DNA of 64,000 bases from Oasisia sp. SBJ-2009 (taxonomy: Eukaryota > Annelida > Polychaeta > Sabellida > Siboglinidae), in NCBI GenBank assembly GCA_964017155.1, contig OZ024854.1, positions 68,916,754-68,980,753 on the forward strand. The letters run 5' to 3'. Of the stretch, positions 2,799 through 31,200 are shown one piece after another. Below the pieces are notes generated by a model. It saw only the letters and a program-made list of their open reading frames with translations. It was not told the DNA's origin and did no database searches. The translations under genes were made by a program, and so were the position numbers. Within the stretch, counting starts at the first letter, position 1. Each line of letters opens with the position of its first letter.

Positions 2799-3032
2799 TC
2801 ATTGTTTTGTTTTGATGCGTTTATGAATGTCCTGAGTCACCGTGTCCTCTGGTTGTCTGTGTAAAATGTCTTCTGACTTTGCAGCCTCTGGCGTCTTATC
2901 CTCAGTTCTTGGGTATTTCTTTATCTCGGGATTCACGACAGGAACTGCACCAAAATGTAATTCTTCCGCTTGTTTCTTCAGCAGTTCAAACTCTGACTGT
3001 ATCCGGTCTGTGATTTGTTTCCGAATCTCCAT
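2799..3032 (-). CDS. TAZ: Tafazzin exon 8 (C-terminus and stop)
   Basis: The acceptor CTGTAG precedes ATGGAGATTCGG at 3032, and the intron is phase 0. It encodes [15 protein letters not shown] and [12 protein letters not shown], matching the C-terminal helix of tafazzins (human EMRKALTDFIQEEF..LKTQAEQLH). About 47 lysine/glutamate/proline-rich residues follow before a TAA at 2799-2801. That tail is an extension beyond the vertebrate end. Confidence 0.9.
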   Translation of the reverse strand: MEIRKQITDRIQSEFELLKKQAEELHFGAVPVVNPEIKKYPRTEDKTPEAAKSEDILHRQPEDTVTQDIHKRIKTKQ

Positions 3033-3406: not shown

Positions 3407-6400
3407 GACATACTGACTGAGAGACGGAAGAGACTGTTACATACGGGAGACTTCTTTGCCTCTCTCAGTCTCGCCAACATCTCCCTGAAGTCTATCGGCT
3501 CACCAATCAACACCGTGACTTTCTGGGAAACAAAACAAACATAAGATTATAGTTGAAATACTTTGTTGAACATAAACTTGACAAAATGTGACTGGAATTT
3601 GTTATGGTCTATATAAAGCTAGCCTTATAATAGATTGTTTTGATTAAAATTAATGTATCATAAAATATTTTATATTAATCATTTGACTGAATTGAATCAT
3701 TTAATAATTTATTTCATTGATTAATATAACAATTATCTATATATTTACTGTCATCTGAATCATGTAATTAATGTTGATCACTTTTCAAATCAAATGATGT
3801 AACGTATGTGACCTAGTGTTTTAATTACAGAAAGGTTAGTTATGATTACAGTACGTCATAATGTATACAGTAACATATTTAAACTGTAAAAATGGTAGTT
3901 GAAAATGGAAGGCAATTTTTTTTTAATGCATGATTACTACAGTGATTGTTGTTGACCCACCTTGCCCATAAGGGGGATATATGGCTTTGTGTTGGGGAGA
4001 ACACTGTCCATGCCTGCAACAGTGACGGCAGAATGTCTAGTGACGTCCACAGAATACAGAAATAGAACACCCAGGTGACACCCACACACTACAGTACAGT
4101 ACACTACCCCTCACTACACTACACTACACTACACTACACTACACTACACTACACCACACCACACTACACTACACTACACTACACTACCCTTCACTACACT
4201 ACCCTTCACTACACTACACTACACTACACTACACTACACTACACTACACTACACTACCCTTCACTACACTACACTACACTACACTACACTACACTACACT
4301 ACACTACCCCTCACTACACTACACTACACTACCCCTCACTTCACTACACTACACTACACTACACTACCCCTCACTACACTACACTACACTACACTACCCC
4401 TCACTACACTACACTACACTACACTACACTACACTACACTACACTACACTACACTACACTACACACCACACCACACCACACCACACCACACCACACCACA
4501 CCACACTACACAAGACCATAGAATGTACTGAGCTGCACTTGTTTCCCTCTAGAGACTATTTCAAAAAACAAATTCTAGTACTGATGGACTCACACATTTG
4601 TAACTTGACCTTTGTGTTTATAAATACCTTTCCCACTGAAAGTCTACATGAACATTTATCAGCAACAACCAACGACTGTGGACAACTGATATTGGGTCAA
4701 ATACAGTTCTGGATTAAACTGAAAGTATTTTTATTGGAAATACTATTGAAATATTTTCCTAAATTATTTGAATTTTTTAAATATTATTTCAAATACATTG
4801 TGCCTTTGTTGTAGCCTGTTTAAACATCATACACATTAAACAGAGCACTGAAGTTAGACATAACGTGTCCCCATTAGTTTACATACCTAGATGCCACATG
4901 GGCAGAACCACAGGGAGGTGTCGACATTCAGCAATGAGACGACCAATTCCTGAAACACAGAAGAATCGGGCTCCGACATCACATAAAACTGGCAATTCTT
5001 GTAAAAACAATTGCTTTGCTAAGGTAAAATATCAGCTACACGTGTAGCTGCATAGCTATAGTAATATTTGTATTCTATTTGTGTGTTTTTGTGGAGTTGT
5101 TCTTCATAAGAATTACCATAATTGCAGTATAAAATACAATTAAACTTATCTTGTTTGTTTTTCATTTATAAACAATTATTAATTCAATATTTTTAAGTAA
5201 AATAAATAATATAAAAAATTAAGTAAAAAATTGAATAACCAAAAGAATTGTTTCAAATTGAATGTTTTTATCCACAAAACCTTCAAGGCGTCTACACAAT
5301 ATTCAAACAGTAAATTTCAGCCTCAGCAAAGACGGGCAAGACTGACCACTACAAGACTAACCACTACAAGACTGACCACCACAAGTGAAGACTGACCACC
5401 ACAGTCAGGAGCAGTTCTTAGATGCTGAACACATGACCTAGTGGCAGACATCAAGTGGGCTGAAGTACAAGTGAGTCAGTGAAGTTCCTGAAGGACTACC
5501 CCAGTGAGAGGGTGATTGTGGGTCATGAGACTACCCCAGTGAGAGGGTGATTGTGGGTCATGAGACTACCCCAGTGAGAGGGTGATTGTAGGTCATGAGA
5601 CTACCCCAGTGAGAGGGTGATTGTGGGTCATGAGACTAACCCAGTGAGAGGGTGATTGTGGGTCATGAGACTACCCCAGTGAGAGGGTGATTGTGGGTCA
5701 TGAGACTACCCCAGTGAGAGGGTGATTGTGGGTCATGAGACTACCCCAGTGAGAGGGTGATTGTAGGTCATGAGACTACCCCAGTGAGAGGGTGATTGTG
5801 GGTCGTGTGACTGTTACCAGTCGCCCTGTACTAAGGTCATACCCCATTTGAGTCGCACGAACTCGTGTGTCATATTCACTTTGCCTGCAACAGAACCAAC
5901 AGAACCAACAGCGTCAGTGTCAGTGTCAGTGTCAGTGTCAGTGTCAGTGTCAGTGTCACTGTCAGTGTCAGTGTCACTGTCAAGACACTCAAATAATTCA
6001 GTCACTTTCCACACCACATTAGTTCAATTATTTCAAGCTTTGACAGATAAAATAGTTTTGCCATGAAATAATAATATAGTAGCAAAACAAAAACTAGAAA
6101 TGTTAGAGTGACGAATAGAAAATTTTACGTAAAGTACAATATTGTAAGTTACATGACTTGCTAAATATTTATTATTAATAAAAGCCTGTTGCATGGTGAT
6201 AGTGTAAAGATTATGTGACTATGTCCAACATCATTGATAGTTTTTCATTGTATGGATAAGCTGAATAGAGGAAGGAACTATGTTAGATGTGCACAATAAT
6301 AGTTTTAAAAATTATTATCTTAAACTTATATAAATTAATAAACAAATATAAACATCACAACAATAATTTTTTACCAAAAGTGATTCTTTTTTATCCATAC

Positions 6401-9263
6401 CCTCCCAATGCACAACTTTATATATTAAATAAACAAAATGGAAATATACTATGGGTTCAGTTCATTAAGATATGGTCCACAAATACCATCTCCAGCTGCA
6501 TTTGTAAGAATATTTGGTTACCACAGTTACCACCATGCACCTTGATTACTATAATATAAAATGAATTCTTTCTAATACAAAATAATACACTGAGCATTTT
6601 GTTAAAATGAGAAAATCAAATGCATATCGACTGTTTTTAACACTGTCACGCACCTTCGGGAAACACGTGGACCCATTCCCCATCGTTGAGTTTCTCCAGG
6701 AGGAAGTCGATTCCCTTCTGGTAGACGCCGTCCCCGCGACAGGTCGGCACAGTGCGGCCGTACGCGAAGAACTGTGAATGAAACGACTTTGTGAAGCAGA
6801 TGTCCGTTGCACCAGACACCCACCGCATGCACTCATTGTGGGTCACCAGGTGGCGCCAGCGCAGGGTACCTGCGAGGAGACATGAACAACTTGTCAAGGG
6901 AGTCTCATATATTTTGTCGATCTTACAAATTACACATATTATATTTCACTATTTTATATTTTAAATAACAAAAAATCAATGTAATTATATTTTAGATTGT
7001 CATTAGATTTAGAGTAAGACAACATTTCAATGGACAATAAAAGGCAACTTGTTTTATTTTATATAGCACTTTTTTTAATCATTACGATAAGAAATATATT
7101 AGTATTATTATTAATTAACAATAACTCAATTCAATGACATATCACTGTAAACCTTAAAAGAATTGATTTTTGAAAAGAAAACAAAAATTAAATTTCAATG
7201 GCAGTGGGTTGACTCCGTCTATGTACTTTTACACCAGAGAAAGAGGTCATCTATGTACTTACACCAGAGAAAAGGGTCATCTATGTACTTACACCAGAGA
7301 AAAGGATCGCCTACGTACTTACACCAGAGAAAGGGGTCATCTATGTACTTACACCAGAGAAAGGGGTCATCTATGTACTTACACCAGAGAAAAGGGTCAT
7401 CTATGTACTTACACCAGAGAAAAGGATCGCCTACGTACTTACACCAGAGAAAGGGGTCGTCTATGTACTTACACCAGAGAAAGAGGTCATCTATGTACTT
7501 ACACCAGAGAAAGGGGTCGTTTATGTACTTACATCAGAGAAAGGGGTCGTCTATGTACTTACACCAGAGAAAGGGGTCATCTATGTACTTACATAAGAGA
7601 AAGGGGTCGTCTATGTACTTACACCAGAGAAAGGGGTCATCTATGTACTTACACCAGAGAAAGAGGTCATCTATGTACTTACACCAGAGAAAGGGGTCAT
7701 CTATGTACTTACACCAGAGAAAGGGATCATCTATGTACTTACACCAGAGAAAGGGCTCATCTATGTACTTACACCAGAGAAAGAGGTCATCTATGTACTT
7801 ACACCAGAGAAATGGGTCATCTATGTACTTACACCAGAGAAAGGGGTCATCTATGTACTTACATAAGAGAAAGGGGTCGTCTATGTACTTACACCAGAGA
7901 AAGGGGTCATCTATGTACTTACACCAGAGAAAGAGGTCATCTATGTACTTACACCAGAGAAAGGGGTCATCTATGTACTTACACCAGAGAAAGGGATCAT
8001 CTATGTACTTACACCAGAGAAAGGGCTCATCTATGGACTTACACCAGAGAAAGGGGTCATCTATGTACTTACATCAGAGAAAGGGGTCATCTATGTACTT
8101 ACACCAGAGAAATGGGTCATCTATGTACTTACACCAGAGAAAGGGGTCATCTATGTACTTACACCAGAGAAAGGGGTCATCTATGTACTTACACCAGAGA
8201 AAGGGGTCATCTATGTACTTACACCAGAGAAAGGGGTCATCTATGTACTTACACCAGAGAAAGGGGTCATCTATGTACTTACACCAGAGAAAGGGGTCAT
8301 CTATGTACTTACACCAGAGAAAGGGGTCATCTATGTACTTACACCAGAGAAAGGGGTCATCTATGTACTTACACCAGAGAAAGGGGTCATCTATGTACTT
8401 ACACCAGAGAAAGGGGTCATCTATGTACTTACACCAGAGAAAGGGGTCATCTATGTACTTACACCAGAGAAAGGGGTCATCTATGTACTTACACCAGAGA
8501 AAGGGGTCATCTATGTACTTACACCAGAGAAAGGGGTCATCTATGTACTTACACCAGAGAAAGGGGTCGTCTATGTACTTACACCAGAGAAAGGGGTCGT
8601 CTATGTACTTACACCAGAGAAAGGGGTCATCTATGTACTTACACCAGAGAAAGGGGTCGTCTATGTACTTACATCAGAGAAAGGGGTCATCTATGTACTT
8701 ACACCAGAGAAAGGGGTCATCTATGTACTTACACCAGAGAAAGGGGTCGTCTATGTACTTACACCAGAGAAAGGGGTCATCTATGTACTTACATCAGAGA
8801 AAGGGGTCGTCTATGTACTTACACCAGAGAAAGGGGTCATCTATGTACTTACACCAGAGAAAGGGGTCATCTATGCAGCATTGGTGGTTGCAGACAGTGA
8901 TCAGAGGCTGGTTTGGGGGCCGTCCATCAACCAATTTCTGGATGGTGCTTTTATTGTAGATGGTCAGTTTGTTCATCCATTCTACAATAAAATGTATCTG
9001 TGACTTTATGCAATGACAGGCTGTCTGGGTGAGATCAGAAATATGCTACATGCAAAACTAACAGAATTACAAGTCAACAGATGGAAAATCATAGAATTTT
9101 TTCTACATTCTTTAAAAGACTAATTATGTCACACTATATGCATTTGACATACATTCTACAGATAAAAAAATTGGCTGTGGCTATTTGACCAGATACGGTC
9201 GGAGAGCTTGGTGAACTATACTACCTGATACAATCGATTAGCCCATGATGCTATTTGACCTGG

Positions 9264-9325
<62 letters not shown>

Positions 9326-11140
9326 TCATATCGCCCACTGTTGTGTAAACACTACTTGACCGGGGATAAATGGAAGATTGTCAGATGTAACTTTGGAGAG
9401 ATACTTACTAAATTGGCACTTTTCATGCTCTTAATTCACATCTTAATATGCTTCCCACCTAATTTTGCATCACCTTCCCACTCATCGTGTGACACGAAAT
9501 ATTTACATGGGTTTAGTGTAGGCATAGTTTACAAGATTAGGATTGTATTGATCTATTTCTGTTTTCAAGGGAACCGTGCATACATCATGACATATCAGTC
9601 ACAAATGAAACGTTTTGGGTTAGCTTAGAAAAAACGAATTATATTTTACGCTTAGGCAAAATACTATAAAATAATATTAGCATATTTTCGCCAGGTTTGC
9701 CCCAGGTGCATGCAAGCATATATGATATTTGCGTATCTGATTCAAATTTAGTTTGAAATTTAGATTCAGTTTTAACATCACATTAAAATCAGAAATTTCA
9801 TGGATGCATTGACGTTGTACAACTTTTGTTTCTTTTGATATCTGCTTCGACTGTCCAACTATCTCACCTAATAAATTATACAACATTACTGCTCTCAAAA
9901 TTTACAACTGCTGCCGATAATCTTACTAAGGCTGCGAATTCACATCTGATCGCCAGTTCATTTGTAGTTTGTACGAATTTGAAGAATCCCCGAAATCTCA
10001 AATCGCTTTTGTTTTTCCAGACAAATAGTCTGGGAGCCGCCCTACGCTATTCAGCCAGATGCACAGTCAAATAGTTCCCCGGGTTATTTAACCATATTCA
10101 GTCAAATAGCCACTCCATAAAAAAAGTCAATCCCATTCTAAATTTCTGATTCTCAATAATTATTAAATTACTCGCTTGAGTTGCGGGTTGAGATTTCCCT
10201 CCATTAAATGAACCTGTATTGTAAGAATGTTGATTGTACAGGCACAGCATGTTGAGCATGTAGATATTATGGATATTGCCCTCTATAATATTATTATTAT
10301 TTGTGGGGTAATCTTCCAGTTAACTGGCCATGATTATTAGGGCCTATTTAAAAAAAATTACCATCTTTTTCAATGTGTATGTGTTCGGAATGTCATTCTA
10401 CATCACTTCCGGTACAAAGAATTCAGATATTAATTTTTAACTGTGTTTTAGACCAATTTCGTGCCGTCAAGTGGCCATAAATAAGCCGATGTTACAGGGC
10501 GTGAGCAGTTGCATAATTAATTTTTATTCTGTATAATGCAGATTTATTTGTTTTAAGCTTACATTTTTCACAAATATTGCTAATTGCATTTTATTTCAAC
10601 TTCGCAATGTTCACGCAGGACATTGCCTTTGTGGCTCTGATGCGTCTGGCATGCGCCAACCGGTCGCGCCCTGTCACATCGGCTTATTTACGTCAACTCG
10701 ACAGCATTAAATTGCTCTAAAACACAATTTAAATAATTAATATCTGACTTCTTTGTACCAGAAGTGATGTAGAATGACATTCTGAACACATACACTTCGA
10801 AAAAAGATGGTTAAAACGTTTCGAAAAGGCCCTAATAATTTAAGCCAGTTAACTGGAAGATTACCCCTTTGACTTTGTGGACCCTATCTGTGACACTGGA
10901 ACACTTCTGGCCCTACACCTCGGCTACAGCCTGGGCCTGGGTCACCGTGACCCCAGAGGCAGAGAGGGCTTGCCCAGTCACAGCCCAGGCAGGGCGAAAG
11001 GGTCACACGTCAAATCGCAGTTTACCTATCCAAAATTTGCTCATTCCACCAACACCGGCAATGACGATCTTGCTCAGGATCGCCCATTTTTTCGGCACTT
11101 TGTTCGTGGACGGGAAAGGCCATTGAAACTCCAACGGCAT
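2799..11140 (-). CDS. TAZ: Tafazzin, complete gene (eight coding exons, whole-gene span)
   Basis: Tafazzin is the phospholipid-lysophospholipid transacylase of mitochondrial membranes that remodels cardiolipin acyl chains. Joining the minus-strand exons 11026-11140, 8853-8981, 6654-6869, 5843-5884, 4887-4949, 3961-4013, 3445-3522 and 2799-3032 gives 930 bases, 309 codons plus stop. Every border has GT..AG and matching phase. The human protein has 292 residues. Landmarks: N-terminus [10 protein letters not shown] and a hydrophobic stretch (residues about 20-33); catalytic HX4D at H71-D76 (NHQCCIDD); DICFTK and GDGVYQKG in exon 3; the FPEG motif at 151-154; GIGRLIAEC; and C-terminal QAEELH. The C-terminal tail after QAEELH is longer and more charged than in vertebrates. 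The vertebrate Delta5-type extra exon was not found. Introns are crowded with satellites, most notably the exon-2-derived array at 7222-8875. The start was chosen because MPL..WPFP matches the family N-terminus. Confidence 0.93.
3335..3404 (+). repeat. (CA)n microsatellite with ACGTAAAC interruptions
   Basis: A CA dinucleotide run broken twice by ACGTAAAC, inside tafazzin intron 7, starting about 40 bases from the exon 7 donor. Confidence 0.9.
3445..3522 (-). CDS. TAZ: Tafazzin exon 7
   Basis: Acceptor TTTCCCAG, then [20 protein letters not shown] and EAKKSP, then donor CCC|GTATGT; phase 0 on both sides. It corresponds to the human [20 protein letters not shown] segment. Length is 78 bases (26 residues). 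Confidence 0.92.
3961..4013 (-). CDS. TAZ: Tafazzin exon 6
   Basis: Acceptor CACTGTTGCAG, donor AAG|GTGGGT. With the base carried over from exon 5 it reads [18 protein letters not shown], aligning with human GMNDVLPNSPPYFPRFGQ. Length is 53 bases, phase 1 in and phase 0 out. Confidence 0.92.
4088..4516 (+). repeat. (CACTA)n pentanucleotide satellite with CACCA and CCCTT variants
   Basis: About 85 tandem pentamers, mostly ACACT, with interspersed CCCTTCACTA and a terminal block of CACCA units (4464-4505). It lies in tafazzin intron 5. The 148-residue ORF across it encodes only HYTTL-type repeats and is not a gene. From 4517 to 4886 I see only unique AT-rich intron. Confidence 0.95.
4887..4949 (-). 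CDS. TAZ: Tafazzin exon 5
   Basis: Acceptor TGTGTTTCAG, donor CTAG|GTATGT. With the carried base it reads [20 protein letters not shown] and LG, matching human [22 protein letters not shown]. Length is 63 bases, phase 1 on both sides. Confidence 0.93.
   Translation of the reverse strand, partial: ELVVSLLNVDTSLWFCPCGI
5496..5805 (+). repeat. 35-bp minisatellite in tafazzin intron 4
   Basis: About nine near-perfect copies of a 35-bp unit beginning CTACCCCAGTGAGAGGGTGA. A short GACTGACCACCACAAG-type repeat precedes it (5338-5405). It ends 38 bases from the exon 4 donor. The stretch 4950-5337 is plain AT-rich intron. Confidence 0.95.
5843..5884 (-). CDS. TAZ: Tafazzin exon 4 (42 bp)
   Basis: Acceptor TCTGTTGCAG, donor TGGG|GTATGA. 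With the carried G it reads [15 protein letters not shown], against human GKVNMSSEFLRFKWG. It follows directly on the FPEG motif of exon 3. Phase 1 on both sides. Confidence 0.94.
5913..5987 (+). repeat. (GTGTCA)n hexanucleotide repeat
   Basis: About twelve GTGTCA/CTGTCA units, about 28 bases upstream (in the sense of the minus-strand gene) of the exon 4 acceptor. It occupies the place where the branch point and polypyrimidine tract would be expected. The stretch 5988-6653 is AT-rich intron without a recognised feature. Confidence 0.92.
6654..6869 (-). CDS. TAZ: Tafazzin exon 3
   Basis: Acceptor TCCTCGCAG, donor GAAG|GTGCGT. With one base from exon 2 it starts [18 protein letters not shown], then has [34 protein letters not shown] and [11 protein letters not shown]. 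These align with human [38 protein letters not shown] and HIFPEG. FPEG is the conserved acyltransferase block bordering the substrate pocket. The direct run [10 protein letters not shown] shows that the vertebrate alternative exon is absent. 216 bases, phase 1 on both sides. Confidence 0.95.
7222..8875 (-). repeat. 30-bp minisatellite made of the tafazzin exon 2 end plus its splice donor (about 55 copies)
   Basis: Read on the minus strand, each unit is ATAGATGACCCCTTTCTCTG followed by GTGTAAGTAC. The right-most unit is the real exon 2 border: its first 22 bases code IDDPFLW plus one base of the next codon, and the rest is the donor GTAAGTAC. The array then repeats the same 30 bases leftward with no length change for 1.6 kb. 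Sporadic variants occur, including units where TGG becomes TGA (around 7532, 8072, 8672, 8792). Units at 8105-8560 are identical. The unit order from about 7590 recurs from about 7860, a 270-bp (nine-unit) duplication. Plus-strand ORFs of 598 and 576 residues are artefacts of a period divisible by three. Confidence 0.97.
8853..8981 (-). CDS. TAZ: Tafazzin exon 2 (catalytic HX4D exon)
   Basis: The acceptor TTTTATTGTAG ends just above 8981. Exon 1 leaves one G, giving [12 protein letters not shown], then [18 protein letters not shown], against human MNHLTVHNRE and PLITVSNHQSCMDDPHLW. H71 and D76 form HX4D. The donor is TGGT|GTAAGT; cutting there gives TGT when joined to exon 3, keeping frame (phase 1). 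The same donor and the 22 preceding bases are the seed of the adjoining minisatellite, so the authentic 3' border is assumed to be the most upstream copy. Confidence 0.93.
9177..10113. mobile_element. Candidate TIR element, about 0.94 kb, in tafazzin intron 1
   Basis: The left end starts GTGGCTATTTGACCAGATAC. The reverse complement of the right end starts GTGGCTATTTGACTGAATAT; 19 of 23 bases match. Partial copies of the same CTATTTGAC motif occur inside (9250, 10045). There is no transposase ORF and I could not see a clear target-site duplication, so this may be a non-autonomous element or chance subrepeats. Confidence 0.45.
9263..9322. repeat. (TA)n microsatellite
   Basis: Almost pure TA dinucleotides inside the candidate TIR element. 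Confidence 0.95.
10305..10867. mobile_element. Long-inverted-repeat (foldback) element, 563 bp, in tafazzin intron 1
   Basis: Both ends begin GGGGTAATCTTCCAGTTAAC when read inward. The two arms stay recognisably complementary for about 200 bases each (shared inner landmarks: GTATGTGTTC, AATGTCATTCTACATCACTTC in part, CAGATATTAAT, AATAAGCCGATGT, ACAGGGCG). Similarity is about 85% by eye. The loop of about 160 bases has no ORF. This is a non-autonomous TIR/foldback element; I could not assign a superfamily or a confident target duplication. Its right end is 158 bases from the exon 1 donor. Confidence 0.8.
11026..11140 (-). CDS. TAZ: Tafazzin exon 1 (start codon)
   Basis: The ATG (plus-strand CAT at 11138-11140) opens [20 protein letters not shown], then [18 protein letters not shown], and the donor is ATAG|GTAAAC. 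Human tafazzin starts MPLHVKWPFPAVPPLTW and ends the exon FWTKY, so M-P-L, W-P-F-P and F-W align. Residues 20-33 form the hydrophobic segment thought to insert into the membrane. Phase 1. The exon is easily missed because it is overlapped by unrelated plus-strand ORFs and lies between two transposons. Confidence 0.88.
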
Positions 11141-24687: not shown

Positions 24688-25101
24688 AGTGTGTGTACGG
24701 TGCGTGTGGGTGTGCGTGTGTTGTTGTTGTGGTGGTGGTGGTGGTGTATGTGAGTGAGTGAGTGAGTGAGTGAGTGAGTGAGTGAGTGAGTGAGTGAGTG
24801 AGTGAGTGAGTGAGTGAGTGAGTGAGTGAGTGAGTGAGTGAGTGAGTGAGTGAGTGAGTGAGTGAGTGAGTGAGTGAGTGAGTGAGTGAGTGAGTGAGTG
24901 AGTGAGTGAGTGAGTGAGTGAGTGAGTGAGTGAGTGAGTGAGTGAGTGAGTGAGTGAGTGAGTGAGTGAGTGAGTGAGTGAGTGAGTGAGTGAGTGAGTG
25001 AGTGAGTGAGTGAGTGAGTGAGTGAGTGAGTGAGTGAGTGAGTGAGTGAGTGAGTGAGTGAGTGAGTGAGTGAGTGAGTGAGTGAGTGAGTGAGTGAGTG
25101 A

Positions 25102-25141
<40 letters not shown>

Positions 25142-25359
25142 AGTGTGTGTACAGTGTGTGTACAGTGTGTGTACAGTGTGTGTACAGTGTGTGTACAGTG
25201 TGTGTACAGTGTGTGTACAGTGTGTGTGTGTGTGTGTACAGTGTGGGTGTGTACAGTGTGTATGTACAGTGTGTGTACAGTGTGTGTGTACAGTGTGTGT
25301 GTACAGTGTGTGTGTACAGTGTGTGTGTACAGTGTGTGTGTGTGTACAGTGTGTGTGTA

Positions 25360-25393
<34 letters not shown>

Positions 25394-25418
25394 AGTGTGT
25401 GTGTACAGTGTGTGTGTA

Positions 25419-25490
<72 letters not shown>

Positions 25491-25795
25491 ACAGTGTGTG
25501 TGTGTGTGTGTGTGTGTACAGTGTATGTACAGTGTATGTACGGTGTATGTACGGTGTGTACGGTGTGTGTGTGTGTGTGTGCGTGCGCATGCGTGCGCGT
25601 GTCACGGTGTATGTACAGTGTGTACAGACAGTGTGTACAGACAGTGTGTACAGACAGTGTGTACAGACAGTGTGTACAGACAGTGTGTACAGACAGTGTG
25701 TACATACAGTGTGTACAGACAGTGTGTACAGACAGTGTGTGTGTACGGTGTGTGTGTACAGTGTGTGTACGATGTGTGTGTGTGTGTGCGTGCGC
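24599..25795. repeat. Compound (TG)n-(TGAG)n-(TGTACAG)n satellite, 1.2 kb
   Basis: A (TG)n block (24599-24687), GTG-rich linker, a pure TGAG run (about 24751-25107, about 89 copies), then GTGTGTACAGT units of varying length, (TG)n again, and a GTGTACAGACA block (25612-25735). His/Thr/Ser and Cys/Val repeat ORFs on both strands are artefacts. It lies just after the candidate exon at 24354. Confidence 0.96.
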
Positions 25796-25998
25796 GTGTG
25801 TGTGGGCGTTTGTCAGATAATGCTAGAGGAGACTGTAGACAATAGTAAGCACAGCACAACAAATTTCTCCAGCCACAGACTATGGGACCTAGGCTATATG
25901 GTCATCTCCAGTCTTCTTTCCATTCTGCCATCCCCTTGTAGAACAGACCGACACCTCCAGGGCCAACATGCCGGGCCATGGCCTCGCAGCCTTCGACA

Positions 25999-26305
25999 CC
26001 GGTGTGGTGGTCCCAGATTCGGCTAAGCGCATACATCGTATGCGCGCGCAAGCACAGTCCCGCTTTTATATGTTCTGACGTAGCATTATTGACATACGTC
26101 ACGCCCGGACCGCGTTTCCTCAAAACGCTTACCTTGCATGCATTTTTATTAAAAACTTGCGAATAACAATCATATTGGAACACTTTATGTATTGCTGTGC
26201 TAGTAACAATGACAAATCCTGGCCTGCTACCGTTGCGGTCCCATATTCGGCGATTCTCGTTCCGGTCGAATATGGGACCGGCCGAATCTGAGACTACGAC
26301 ACCGG
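25999..26305. mobile_element. Small TIR element, about 307 bp
   Basis: The left end CCGGTGTGGTGGTCCCAGAT and the right end read inward CCGGTGTCGTAGTCTCAGAT continue to TCGGC, matching at 22 of 25 bases. An inner palindrome (GGTCCCATATTCG near 26238 against CGAATATGGGACC ending at 26280) flanks a 17-base loop. No target duplication was clear. A 168-codon minus-strand ORF crosses it and is considered spurious. Confidence 0.6.
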
Positions 26306-27045
26306 AATTTAGAATTGTGTAACAAAACAATATATCCGCCTCTTTCAAAAACAGTTGTGTTTTTTCCGTAGTAAGGAATAGGCCTCTAGTGCAGCCCACG
26401 TCTTCCACTTCCCTTTCGTTTCCAACTCACATCAGGACACGTCTTCGTGATCTATTGTCGCGGGAGCCTATGGTTCTGCCCCGGGTATTCTGAATGAGTG
26501 ACTGCGGCGCTGTCGCAGTGTTTTCAACAGTGCGACTTTATCTCGTCTCTCTTGGACGACGCAGGCCACGTTATGTGAACGAAATTTTAATTGTCTACAT
26601 TTTGAAATGGAAACTGACAGGTGGGTTCGAACCCCAAATCCCTAATCGTAGTTGGGTTTTTTCGTGCGACGCGTAATTTCACCGTACTGTCCTCCGTCGG
26701 CCTCGAGTGACGTCACTCCGTGGTTCTGGCTCTTATTTCAAGTAAACGTCCCACGTTCGTGTGTCTCCCGTCACTTTCTGGGAGACTGAGTGCACATAGT
26801 TAGAAACATGCGTCAACTGATTACGAACATGTGCGACACAGGAGACGCAACGGGTGAACGAGGGTTACAGCCGGTGCCCCGGGGCCAGTCATGTGTCGAC
26901 AGTAGGTATGACCGTATGAGGCCCTTGTGGGGTTAAGTCAACGCCTGATGGTAGATAGGAAGCCTTATAGCTATACATCTAGTCGGCTTCGTCGTGGAAC
27001 GTTGTACAATGACGTAAACTGTTAAACTTGTCACAGCACTTTGTG

Positions 27046-28161: not shown

Positions 28162-28267
28162 ATGGTTTCGCCGGATACAAACAGGCTTATTGAGCGGGAT
28201 GTCGAGAAGTCCGGCACTGACGAAAACGAATTTGTCCCAAACGGAGACAAGCCAGAAACTGGCGCAG
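28162..28267 (+). CDS. Candidate first coding exon of SLC35A
   Basis: ATG at 28162 opens MVSPDTNRLIERDVEKSGTD, then ENEFVPNGDKPETGA, and a donor GCAG|GTAAAT at phase 1. It joins the exon at 36330 to give GAG-SSLKYISL, so the cytosolic N-terminal tail runs straight into the first membrane helix, as expected for SLC35A2/A3. The tail is acidic and polar. It has no stop problem and a good donor. It competes with the 24354 + 27469 pair as alternative 5' ends. Confidence 0.5.
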
Positions 28268-31200
28268 GTAAATCAATAATATTGTAATTAATAATTAACT
28301 GTTTCAGTCAGGTACTAGCCAAATTTGTGCAGACGTACAAGTGCCACACTTTTTTTAGACTTGAAGATATATATACTTCTAGTCTAGATAAAAAAATCGC
28401 TCCCTTAACCAACATAATGATTGCCTCCAAGACCAAGATATCTAGGTAATCTAGAATATCAAATTCCCCACATCAAAAATAGATATTCCAGCAATTTGTA
28501 ACTTAAATTTAATGGCTTCGTAAATTTAATGACGTCATAAAATAAACGTAGTTATCAAAATGATAATAAAACACTATTTCAATGCTAGACAAAATTGTGC
28601 TAGCGTACAAGAAGTACCAAACCATTTAAAACCCATTTATGCCCTTGATGTTCAAATATTACTTACAAAATGATTCTCTTTCTGAAAGAGATAATCTTTT
28701 ATTTTGTTCCAGAGTTATAATGTCAGATAACACACCATACTTTCACTGATGTAGTCCCTTAGACACAGCCAACACGTTTTGCATGTTAAGCATACACATT
28801 TCAATTTTAAACTTCCGGTTTATTTTCATCATCAAGCTAACACAAAACTAAGCATAATTGTTCAAACTAGCAGTCGAACACCTTCGATTTGTAATGATTT
28901 ATTTTATCGGTGTATGTAAAAAGATGTCATGGACATCAGCCAGTGGCAGTAGACATTTGAAAACGAGATCGGCTGCTTAGCATCAGTTTCTTGGCAAAAC
29001 AGGTGATCAGTGCAGTTGGCTCTGTGGAAATGAAATGATTAATACCACATGGGGAAATTCATTTTGAATGTTAGAATGTAAAATTAAAGGTGTATTTTAT
29101 AGTATAAAAATAAAATAGATCAGTAGTATAAATAATAATTTTTAAAGTCACTTCCAGTAGTCGCAAGGGCAAATACCCTATTTGGGATTTTATGTTTGGA
29201 ACCCTAGCAACCCTTAAAATAGGGGCACATCTGTGAAATTCTATCAAATTTTTAATTACTCACCTGGGAAGATTTATGGATTTTGGTTGATTTGGCATGG
29301 AATGACAAATATTTATGCATGTAACATTCAAATATCAATTCAGTGAACTACACATTTTCTGAAAGGATAGATACTTTTCCAAAAAATATTCAAAACATTT
29401 ACTCAGATGACACAACATAACTTACTTTCACTAATATAACCACTAAAACTGTCACTCAACGTGTTTTGCGTGGTCAGCATATGAATGTCATTTTTTTATA
29501 TAACCTTTTTTATTTTCACCATTAAATTAATGCAAAACTAACGTAAACAAAATTATCCAAATTCCTCCCTTTTTATGATTTATCTTAAAAATCTGTCCAG
29601 GTCCCCAGCCAATCTCAGTATACAACCCAATACAGTACATTGTAGTTGACATTTGAAAATGATATGAACCATGAAATCTGGCGGACCCGTCCAAAAACGC
29701 AGCTTTCTCTAATTTTACCTGTCCAAATGACAGGCCCTGCAGTTGGCTGCCTCACAGGCCCTGCAGTTGGCTGCCTCACAGGCTGGGCCTTATGCAGGAT
29801 AAACATTTTGCCAGTCACACTTTTTTTGGTGGACTTTGGTGGAATATTAATTTGTATATATTATATACAAATACAAGCCAGTTGAGATTAGCTTTATGAC
29901 CTGAAATACAGTAGAGACACATGCCACTCATTTTCAAAGCATAACATGTAAAGTGCTGAACATTGTTAATGCAATGGATATATGCGCTATATAAAATAAA
30001 TCGTGGCAGGTGGTTCATAAAACAGTTGAAGTAATAATATAACTCTATAATAACACTTATACCAGCACTTGGGCATGTCTACAAGCCTTGAATCATTTGT
30101 GACCCATTAACATTGGCATTTGGTGTAGACCAGTGTACTAAGTATCAGGGCTTTATGCAGGATAAAATTATTGCCAGTCACACATGTTTTGGTGGACACG
30201 TGGATGTTAACTGTTAAGCTAGTTTATGAACTTACAGATGTGCCGATGACCTGAAATGGGCTACAAACACACATATATATATATGACACCATTTACACTC
30301 ACTTTCAAGGCATAACTAACAATATCTATGGTTTTGGAAGACCTTTTTTCTTCTTCTTTTTTGCTCCTTCATTTTTTTACCCGTCCTGGCCGTCCACCCA
30401 TATTTCTGCCTGTATATATTTGTTTTTACCCATCCTAATGACGGGTGGACGGGTCTCTACATAAAGCTATGCTAAGTATTATTTAAATACTCTACATACA
30501 TTCAACTATTACTGTTGACAGTGTTATCAAGCGTTACCATAGCTTTATGCAGAGACCTATCCACCAATCACTTGGACAGGTAAAACCCATTGTGGACAGG
30601 TAGAAATATCCGTGGACAGGTAAAACATGAAGGAACAGTCTTCAGAAATTGTAGATAAAGAGTCATGTCTTGAAAATGGGTGTTTGTACATTATAAAACA
30701 CATCTCAGCTGGCATACATGTCAGGTAACATCCATGTGTCCACCCAAAAAATATGTGACTGGCAAATTGTTATCCTGCATAAAGCCCTGAATGTTACCAT
30801 AGCAACCAAGCGACATTTCCGTCTTTTGAGTGTCTGAGGTGTCAGGAAAAACTCAGGATATCATTTCTCAATGTAACTGTCTGGCTTACACTTGAAAGTT
30901 GTTCACTGCTCAGTGCCTGCTGTGACTAAGTTGTATATTGACTGTGCTGGCATGTGGTTGTGCTGTGTGTCATTCATTCCCTAGCTATGTCAGTGAAGCA
31001 GTTTTTTTTAAAGCTGTAGTGCGAGTAACAATTGAGGCAATTTGTTTTATGTAATACTACTTCCTTTTAGGCACCCGAACCTATCCACCCATCAGTAAAC
31101 CTGACATTGTGAACGGTTAGAAATAACACAGGATATGAGATGGATGGTAACAAAATGAAGGAGCATAACAAATCTTCCAAAATCATAGATATTATAACTA

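Follow-up and report, generated by a model that had tools for sequence, protein, structure and literature searches.

A 30-bp minisatellite repeating the exon 2 donor border of a tafazzin gene in the siboglinid annelid Oasisia

The tafazzin gene and the array at its exon 2 border

The window analysed here, a stretch of 64,000 nucleotides from Oasisia sp. SBJ-2009 (contig OZ024854.1), carries a complete tafazzin gene on its minus strand, with eight exons encoding 309 residues in a frame that is open throughout. A tblastn search with human tafazzin returned eight blocks, and exon borders were set by GT/AG dinucleotides and phase. Exon 1, with the start codon, occupies positions 11026 to 11140, exon 2 positions 8853 to 8981 (129 nt when its first donor is used, phase 1) and exon 3 positions 6654 to 6869 (216 nt), followed by exon 4 (5843 to 5884), exon 5 (4887 to 4949), exon 6 (3961 to 4013), exon 7 (3445 to 3522) and the coding part of exon 8 up to the stop (2799 to 3032). 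All seven introns are GT/AG with consistent phases, and exon 2, read from 8981 to 8853, joins exon 3, read from 6869 to 6654, in frame. Exon 4 has arrays on both sides: upstream, a 6-bp array stops about 25 bp short of it, and nine copies of a 35-bp unit (5494 to 5812) lie about 31 bp downstream of its end.

The predicted product contains an Acyltransferase domain (PF01553, E 4.6e-21, residues 46-186), and a protein search with it retrieved 424 proteins at E <= 0.001, with homologues across animals; among the best 120 of these matches, most of those carrying a name are tafazzins. The HX4D motif falls at H71 and D76, corresponding to His69 and Asp74 of human tafazzin (PMC4412953), and is invariant across the nine aligned sequences. 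The predicted C-terminus extends 51 residues beyond the last aligned His (H258), longer than in all eight aligned relatives. No protein among the best 120 of the 424 matches is named Ridgeia, though a Ridgeia SLC35A was found, so the Ridgeia tafazzin may be absent or misannotated. That SLC35A match concerns another gene in the window, of which one exon is 95% identical to the Ridgeia piscesae protein, pointing to a vestimentiferan tubeworm as the likely host; upstream of this main SLC35A gene, a second SLC35A-like stretch (28162 to 28422) is 50% identical to the Ridgeia protein. The densest cluster of GTRAGT in the window, 89 in 2 kb on the plus strand (24750 to 26749), falls within GT-rich simple repeats and is distinct from the tafazzin array described below.

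A feature that could mark the gene as a decaying copy, in which the splicing of any array would be irrelevant, is residue C82, encoded at the exon 2 border (position 8853) right after a conserved Trp (LW). All eight aligned relatives have Gly here, and the Oasisia gene has Cys because the last base of exon 2 is T. Against decay stand the open frame over eight exons, the presence of all splice sites and an identity of 52-60% to the eight relatives, and we find a decaying copy scarcely credible.

Directly contiguous with exon 2 lies a minisatellite of 55 units of 30 bp on the minus strand (7225 to 8874), which Tandem Repeats Finder delimits at 7218-8875 with a period of 30, 55.2 copies and a 95% match. 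Each unit joins the 22 bases that end exon 2, ATAGATGACCCCTTTCTCTGGT, to the 8 that open intron 2, GTAAGTAC, such that the array spans the exon-intron boundary and its unit 1 holds the genuine end of exon 2. The array thus starts at exon 2's own donor (first base at 8852; GTAAGT at 8847 to 8852, within unit 1), repeats that donor and includes 22 exon bases. This composition and copy number had been proposed in the initial annotation and are borne out by both Tandem Repeats Finder and the unit register, as is the presence of GTAAGT in nearly every unit (54 of 55); unit 55 reads GTAAAA through a 2-bp insertion. It had also been proposed that the unit re-encodes the catalytic Asp of HX4D, and the IDD codons do hold that residue (D76), with the His lying outside the unit. 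The T that yields C82 is the last exon base in 55/55 units, and therefore either predated the growth of the array or was spread through it.

Among the 55 units, 27 are identical to ATAGATGACCCCTTTCTCTGGTGTAAGTAC, and there are 14 unit types in total. A search of the whole assembly (764 Mb) with 300 bp of the array, in which only the best candidates were scored and very common words were skipped, gave eight matches, all within this same array. The open reading frame formed by exon 2 and the array had no match among proteins, and the 25-base unit junction had none in viral_contigs and genome_contigs, where few animal sequences are expected. On the plus strand, two frames are open across the entire array (window 7151-8959; 602 and 577 aa from stop to stop), which probably results simply from a stop-free 30-bp period.

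Assemblies are known to go wrong at tandem arrays, and the true locus might hold few copies, inflated or misassembled here. The 1.65 kb of the array, however, contain no N, and the 14 unit types follow an ordered, non-periodic pattern in which one block of units has been copied. Four other donor-border arrays with different units also occur in this genome, and we hold an assembly artefact to be highly improbable.

Past the last full unit there is a partial terminal copy (7216 to 7223, minus strand; Tandem Repeats Finder ends the array at 7218), which reads CATAGACG where the unit start in exon 2 reads CATAGATG. The array may have originated, on the evidence of this one allele, by a tandem duplication between these two short direct repeats, the exonic CATAGATG and the intronic CATAGACG, which lie 30 bp apart, and could have grown by slippage or unequal exchange after the first duplication. 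Units differing from the consensus number 8 of 27 in the exon-proximal part versus 20 of 28 in the distal part, a comparison for which a test is a guide only, as the units share ancestry. A mixed block of seven units is present twice, which 0 of 2000 shuffles matched. The copies near the exon are the most uniform; the distal copies would have drifted, and a block of units would have been copied. Such a pattern is in line with the usual turnover of minisatellites, the young end lying beside a template that would be held constant by coding selection.

Frame outcomes and donor choice

The period of 30 preserves the frame. Splicing from donor 1 would give the 309-residue protein, and splicing from donor 2 would give ten more residues. 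Within unit 3, before the third donor, there is an in-frame TGA (8796-8794, minus strand), which the product of donor 3 includes, ending at residue 101. Because this TGA precedes the third donor, the frame is open through exon 3 for only two of the 54 donors (donors 1 and 2), and donors 3-54 lead to a premature stop. The suggestion that use of the second or third donor would add in-frame blocks therefore stands for donor 2 and fails for donor 3. The ladder of isoforms that had been envisaged is likewise mostly closed by the sequence, with an addition of ten residues as its sole open step.

One conceivable 18-nt microexon, running from ATAG to GTAAGT within the array, would preserve the frame. 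At its putative acceptor, 9 of the 16 positions from -20 to -5 are pyrimidines, which equals the figure for the real exon 2 acceptor; the gene's other six acceptors have 12-13 of 16.

Our preferred reading, to which we give a probability of about 0.72, is that this is a minisatellite at an exon-intron border and that, of its 54 GTAAGT donors, exon definition is predicted to lead the spliceosome to the first, with the other copies leaving with the intron. The introns flanking exon 2 measure 2044 nt (intron 1) and 1983 nt (intron 2, from donor 1), and exon definition is therefore favoured. Five published minigenes, each with a pair of identical CAG/guaagu donors and introns of 365 nt on either side, were spliced at the upstream donor alone, and in human events where the competing donors are about equally strong, preference goes to the upstream one in 60% (PMC9225289). 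The same source also reports two results that count against the first-donor reading: when all human competing pairs are taken without strength matching, preference goes to the downstream donor in about 60%, and weakening the donors of minigenes led to skipping of the larger exons (PMC9225289). Of the 54 array donors, 47 have a predicted U1 pairing energy of -7.8 kcal/mol and seven pair more weakly, which places the array donors in the middle of the range spanned by the six remaining donors of the gene (-3.5 to -9.9 kcal/mol). With T at -1 and moderate U1 pairing, the exon 2 donor is therefore not clearly dominant.

The array would be tolerated if the exon is recognised outwards from its own acceptor, such that a downstream donor copy is ignored, and each duplication would then be nearly neutral. 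Errors would carry a cost: use of donor 2 would insert ten residues beside the active site, and use of donors 3-54 would run into the unit-3 TGA, with the transcript probably being degraded.

The array could instead be a functional donor cluster, in which many donors are used to produce an in-frame isoform ladder or in which U1 is sequestered by the array. The motif GTAAGT is intact in 54 of 55 units, and the 30-bp period would keep such isoforms in frame; the unit-3 TGA, however, closes the frame for 52 of the 54 donors, and the intact donors are accounted for by homogenisation. All 12 of the substitution types among units 1-54 fall outside GTAAGT, an outcome with a chance probability of about 7% when all sites are treated as equal; given this figure, and given that unit 55 breaks GTAAGT, we do not count the conservation of the motif as evidence of selection. 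We judge a functional cluster very unlikely, and two results from elsewhere in the genome, given below, weigh further against it.

Border arrays in the rest of the genome

We sampled 40 exons elsewhere in the genome, taking 30 from the 139 matches to kinases and 10 from the 19 matches to AAA proteins. Exons were chosen by match coordinates before their sequences were seen, the kinase matches being short and stop-free and the AAA matches stop-free. An exon was scored as having a border array when the 14-base sequence around its donor occurs again in the locus, one mismatch being allowed; several exons in which a simple score did not clearly identify the donor (e.g., L042, L044, L056, L060 and L061) were kept in the denominator.

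Donor-border arrays were found at 4 of the 40 sampled exons, with units that are all different. In one (L033), a 27-bp unit gives three donors in frame. The most extensive (L041 with L062; G000:C6, from about 25760942) follows a kinase exon, presumably of the SNF1/SIK-like subfamily, and has a 38-bp unit with 39 intact GCAG/GTGGGT donors, of which the first alone preserves the frame. As a sister case to tafazzin in which only the first donor is in frame, it is one of the two results that argue against a functional donor cluster. The third (L049 with L063) has a 21-bp unit in about 20 copies, mostly degenerate, and the fourth (L069) a 61-bp unit in at least five copies, running past the end of the stretch. 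Another exon (L034) was rejected as a donor-border array, as its native donor is unrepeated and is followed by GTCAGT and GTTAGT forms alone.

On the acceptor side, judged by predicted acceptors, 1 of the 40 sampled exons has a border array (L064; G000:C13:9899920-9900730), located before an AAA-ATPase exon, with a 52-bp unit in 5.8 copies cut by the end of the stretch. All five upstream copies read AT where the predicted real acceptor reads AG.

These frequencies were compared with those at random sites. In 18 of 20 stretches, local repetition is seen at 13.5% of 1306 random GTR sites (19.1% of 1427 in all 20, with the satellite-rich L012 and L024 included), versus which 4 of 40 exons amounts to no enrichment of arrays at donors. 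Random AG sites are locally repeated in 11.8% of 1322 cases in the 18 stretches (17.3% of 1470 in all 20); the figure for acceptors, 1 of 40, is lower than this, with small numbers. Tandem arrays with a period of 9 or more account for 20.0% of the window; in 200 kb sampled along contig 1, which include 25,164 N and two satellite stretches, their share is 19.0%. Arrays arise in many places, and donors are not favoured as targets but are simply not spared. The second result bearing on a functional donor cluster is that GTRAGT is not enriched in the genome's arrays: 3 of 49 arrays (period 15-250, at least three copies, from the window and the 20 stretches, the tafazzin array included) contain it, versus 2.3 expected from single-base shuffles.

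Extending the first-donor reading from this locus to vestimentiferan genomes at large is more tentative. In such genomes, donor minisatellites might sit at about one in ten donors, the first of N identical donors would be picked almost without error, the starts of introns would grow freely as decoy arrays, and acceptor copies would be forced to lose their AG. We regard this wider picture as possible but doubtful. If true, it would provide a natural library of exons trailed by up to dozens of identical donors. Experiments on donor competition usually set two sites against each other in a minigene; the natural cases here offer 54 donors (tafazzin), all with the same six-base core, and 39 (kinase), and the frame outcomes in these two arrays make donor errors both costly and countable.

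Comparison with known systems

The initial annotation stated that no gene with such a donor array had been described; this does not hold, as both human ABCA7 intron 18 and the lancelet 'mirages' are already in the literature. ABCA7 intron 18 contains a 25-bp VNTR beginning with the exon 18 donor, in about 12 to 427 copies (PMC5954066). The two arrays are alike in being minisatellites that start at and repeat an exon's donor, with a second-donor isoform that gains one unit. In ABCA7, however, the first two bases of the unit are the donor GT and an extra unit shifts the frame, whereas the tafazzin unit includes 22 coding bases and keeps it. Retention of one unit in ABCA7, through the second donor, is reported in about 2 +/- 1% of transcripts, whatever the VNTR length (PMC5954066). 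Longer VNTRs, by contrast, come with more skipping of exon 19 and with lower expression: at the largest allele sum (5399 + 4575 bp), skipping is 3.2 times higher and expression 33% lower than at the smallest (557 + 315 bp) (PMC5954066). A donor VNTR therefore need not be neutral.

By analogy with these measured length effects, copy number could tune tafazzin output, with a longer array giving lower expression and more exon 3 skipping while donor 1 remains the main donor. Skipping of exon 3 would preserve the tafazzin frame, which suits such a role. The ABCA7 VNTR, however, is length-polymorphic and disease-linked, whereas the tafazzin array is known from one assembly and one length, and we consider tuning by copy number unlikely, if less so than a functional donor cluster.

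The lancelet 'mirages' (Adh3, the globins BflGb6 and BflGb9, and troponin C, compared with PGBD5) are minisatellite-like tandem duplications of exon borders, many of whose repeats carry AG/GT signals and which reportedly leave regular splicing undisturbed (PMC3087553, PMC3902484). Adh3 units measure 10-72 bp and globin units about 150-160 bp with the acceptor border included, and BflGb6 haplotypes have six and three copies (PMC3087553, PMC3902484). They resemble the tafazzin array in having tandem units across an exon-intron border that carry splice signals. The lancelet globins, in contrast, have few, long copies that include the acceptor border, whereas tafazzin has 55 units of 30 bp at the donor, in an annelid. 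A duplicated border that carries splice signals is also the starting material when introns are gained through tandem duplication of AG/GT sites (PMC3087553), but in tafazzin no new intron is seen and the copies lie within the old one.

In the open-licence literature we found no report of donor-border arrays in annelids. Earthworm metallothionein introns hold minisatellites, and no donor in their unit is mentioned in the available portion of that report (PMC12783039). The Oasisia arrays suggest that minisatellites like those at the ABCA7 and lancelet exon borders appear again in a third lineage, and they could then be sought systematically in repeat-rich genomes. The kind of structure is thus already known; what is new is the size of the tafazzin array, its frame-keeping coding unit, its annelid host and the four further arrays in the same genome.
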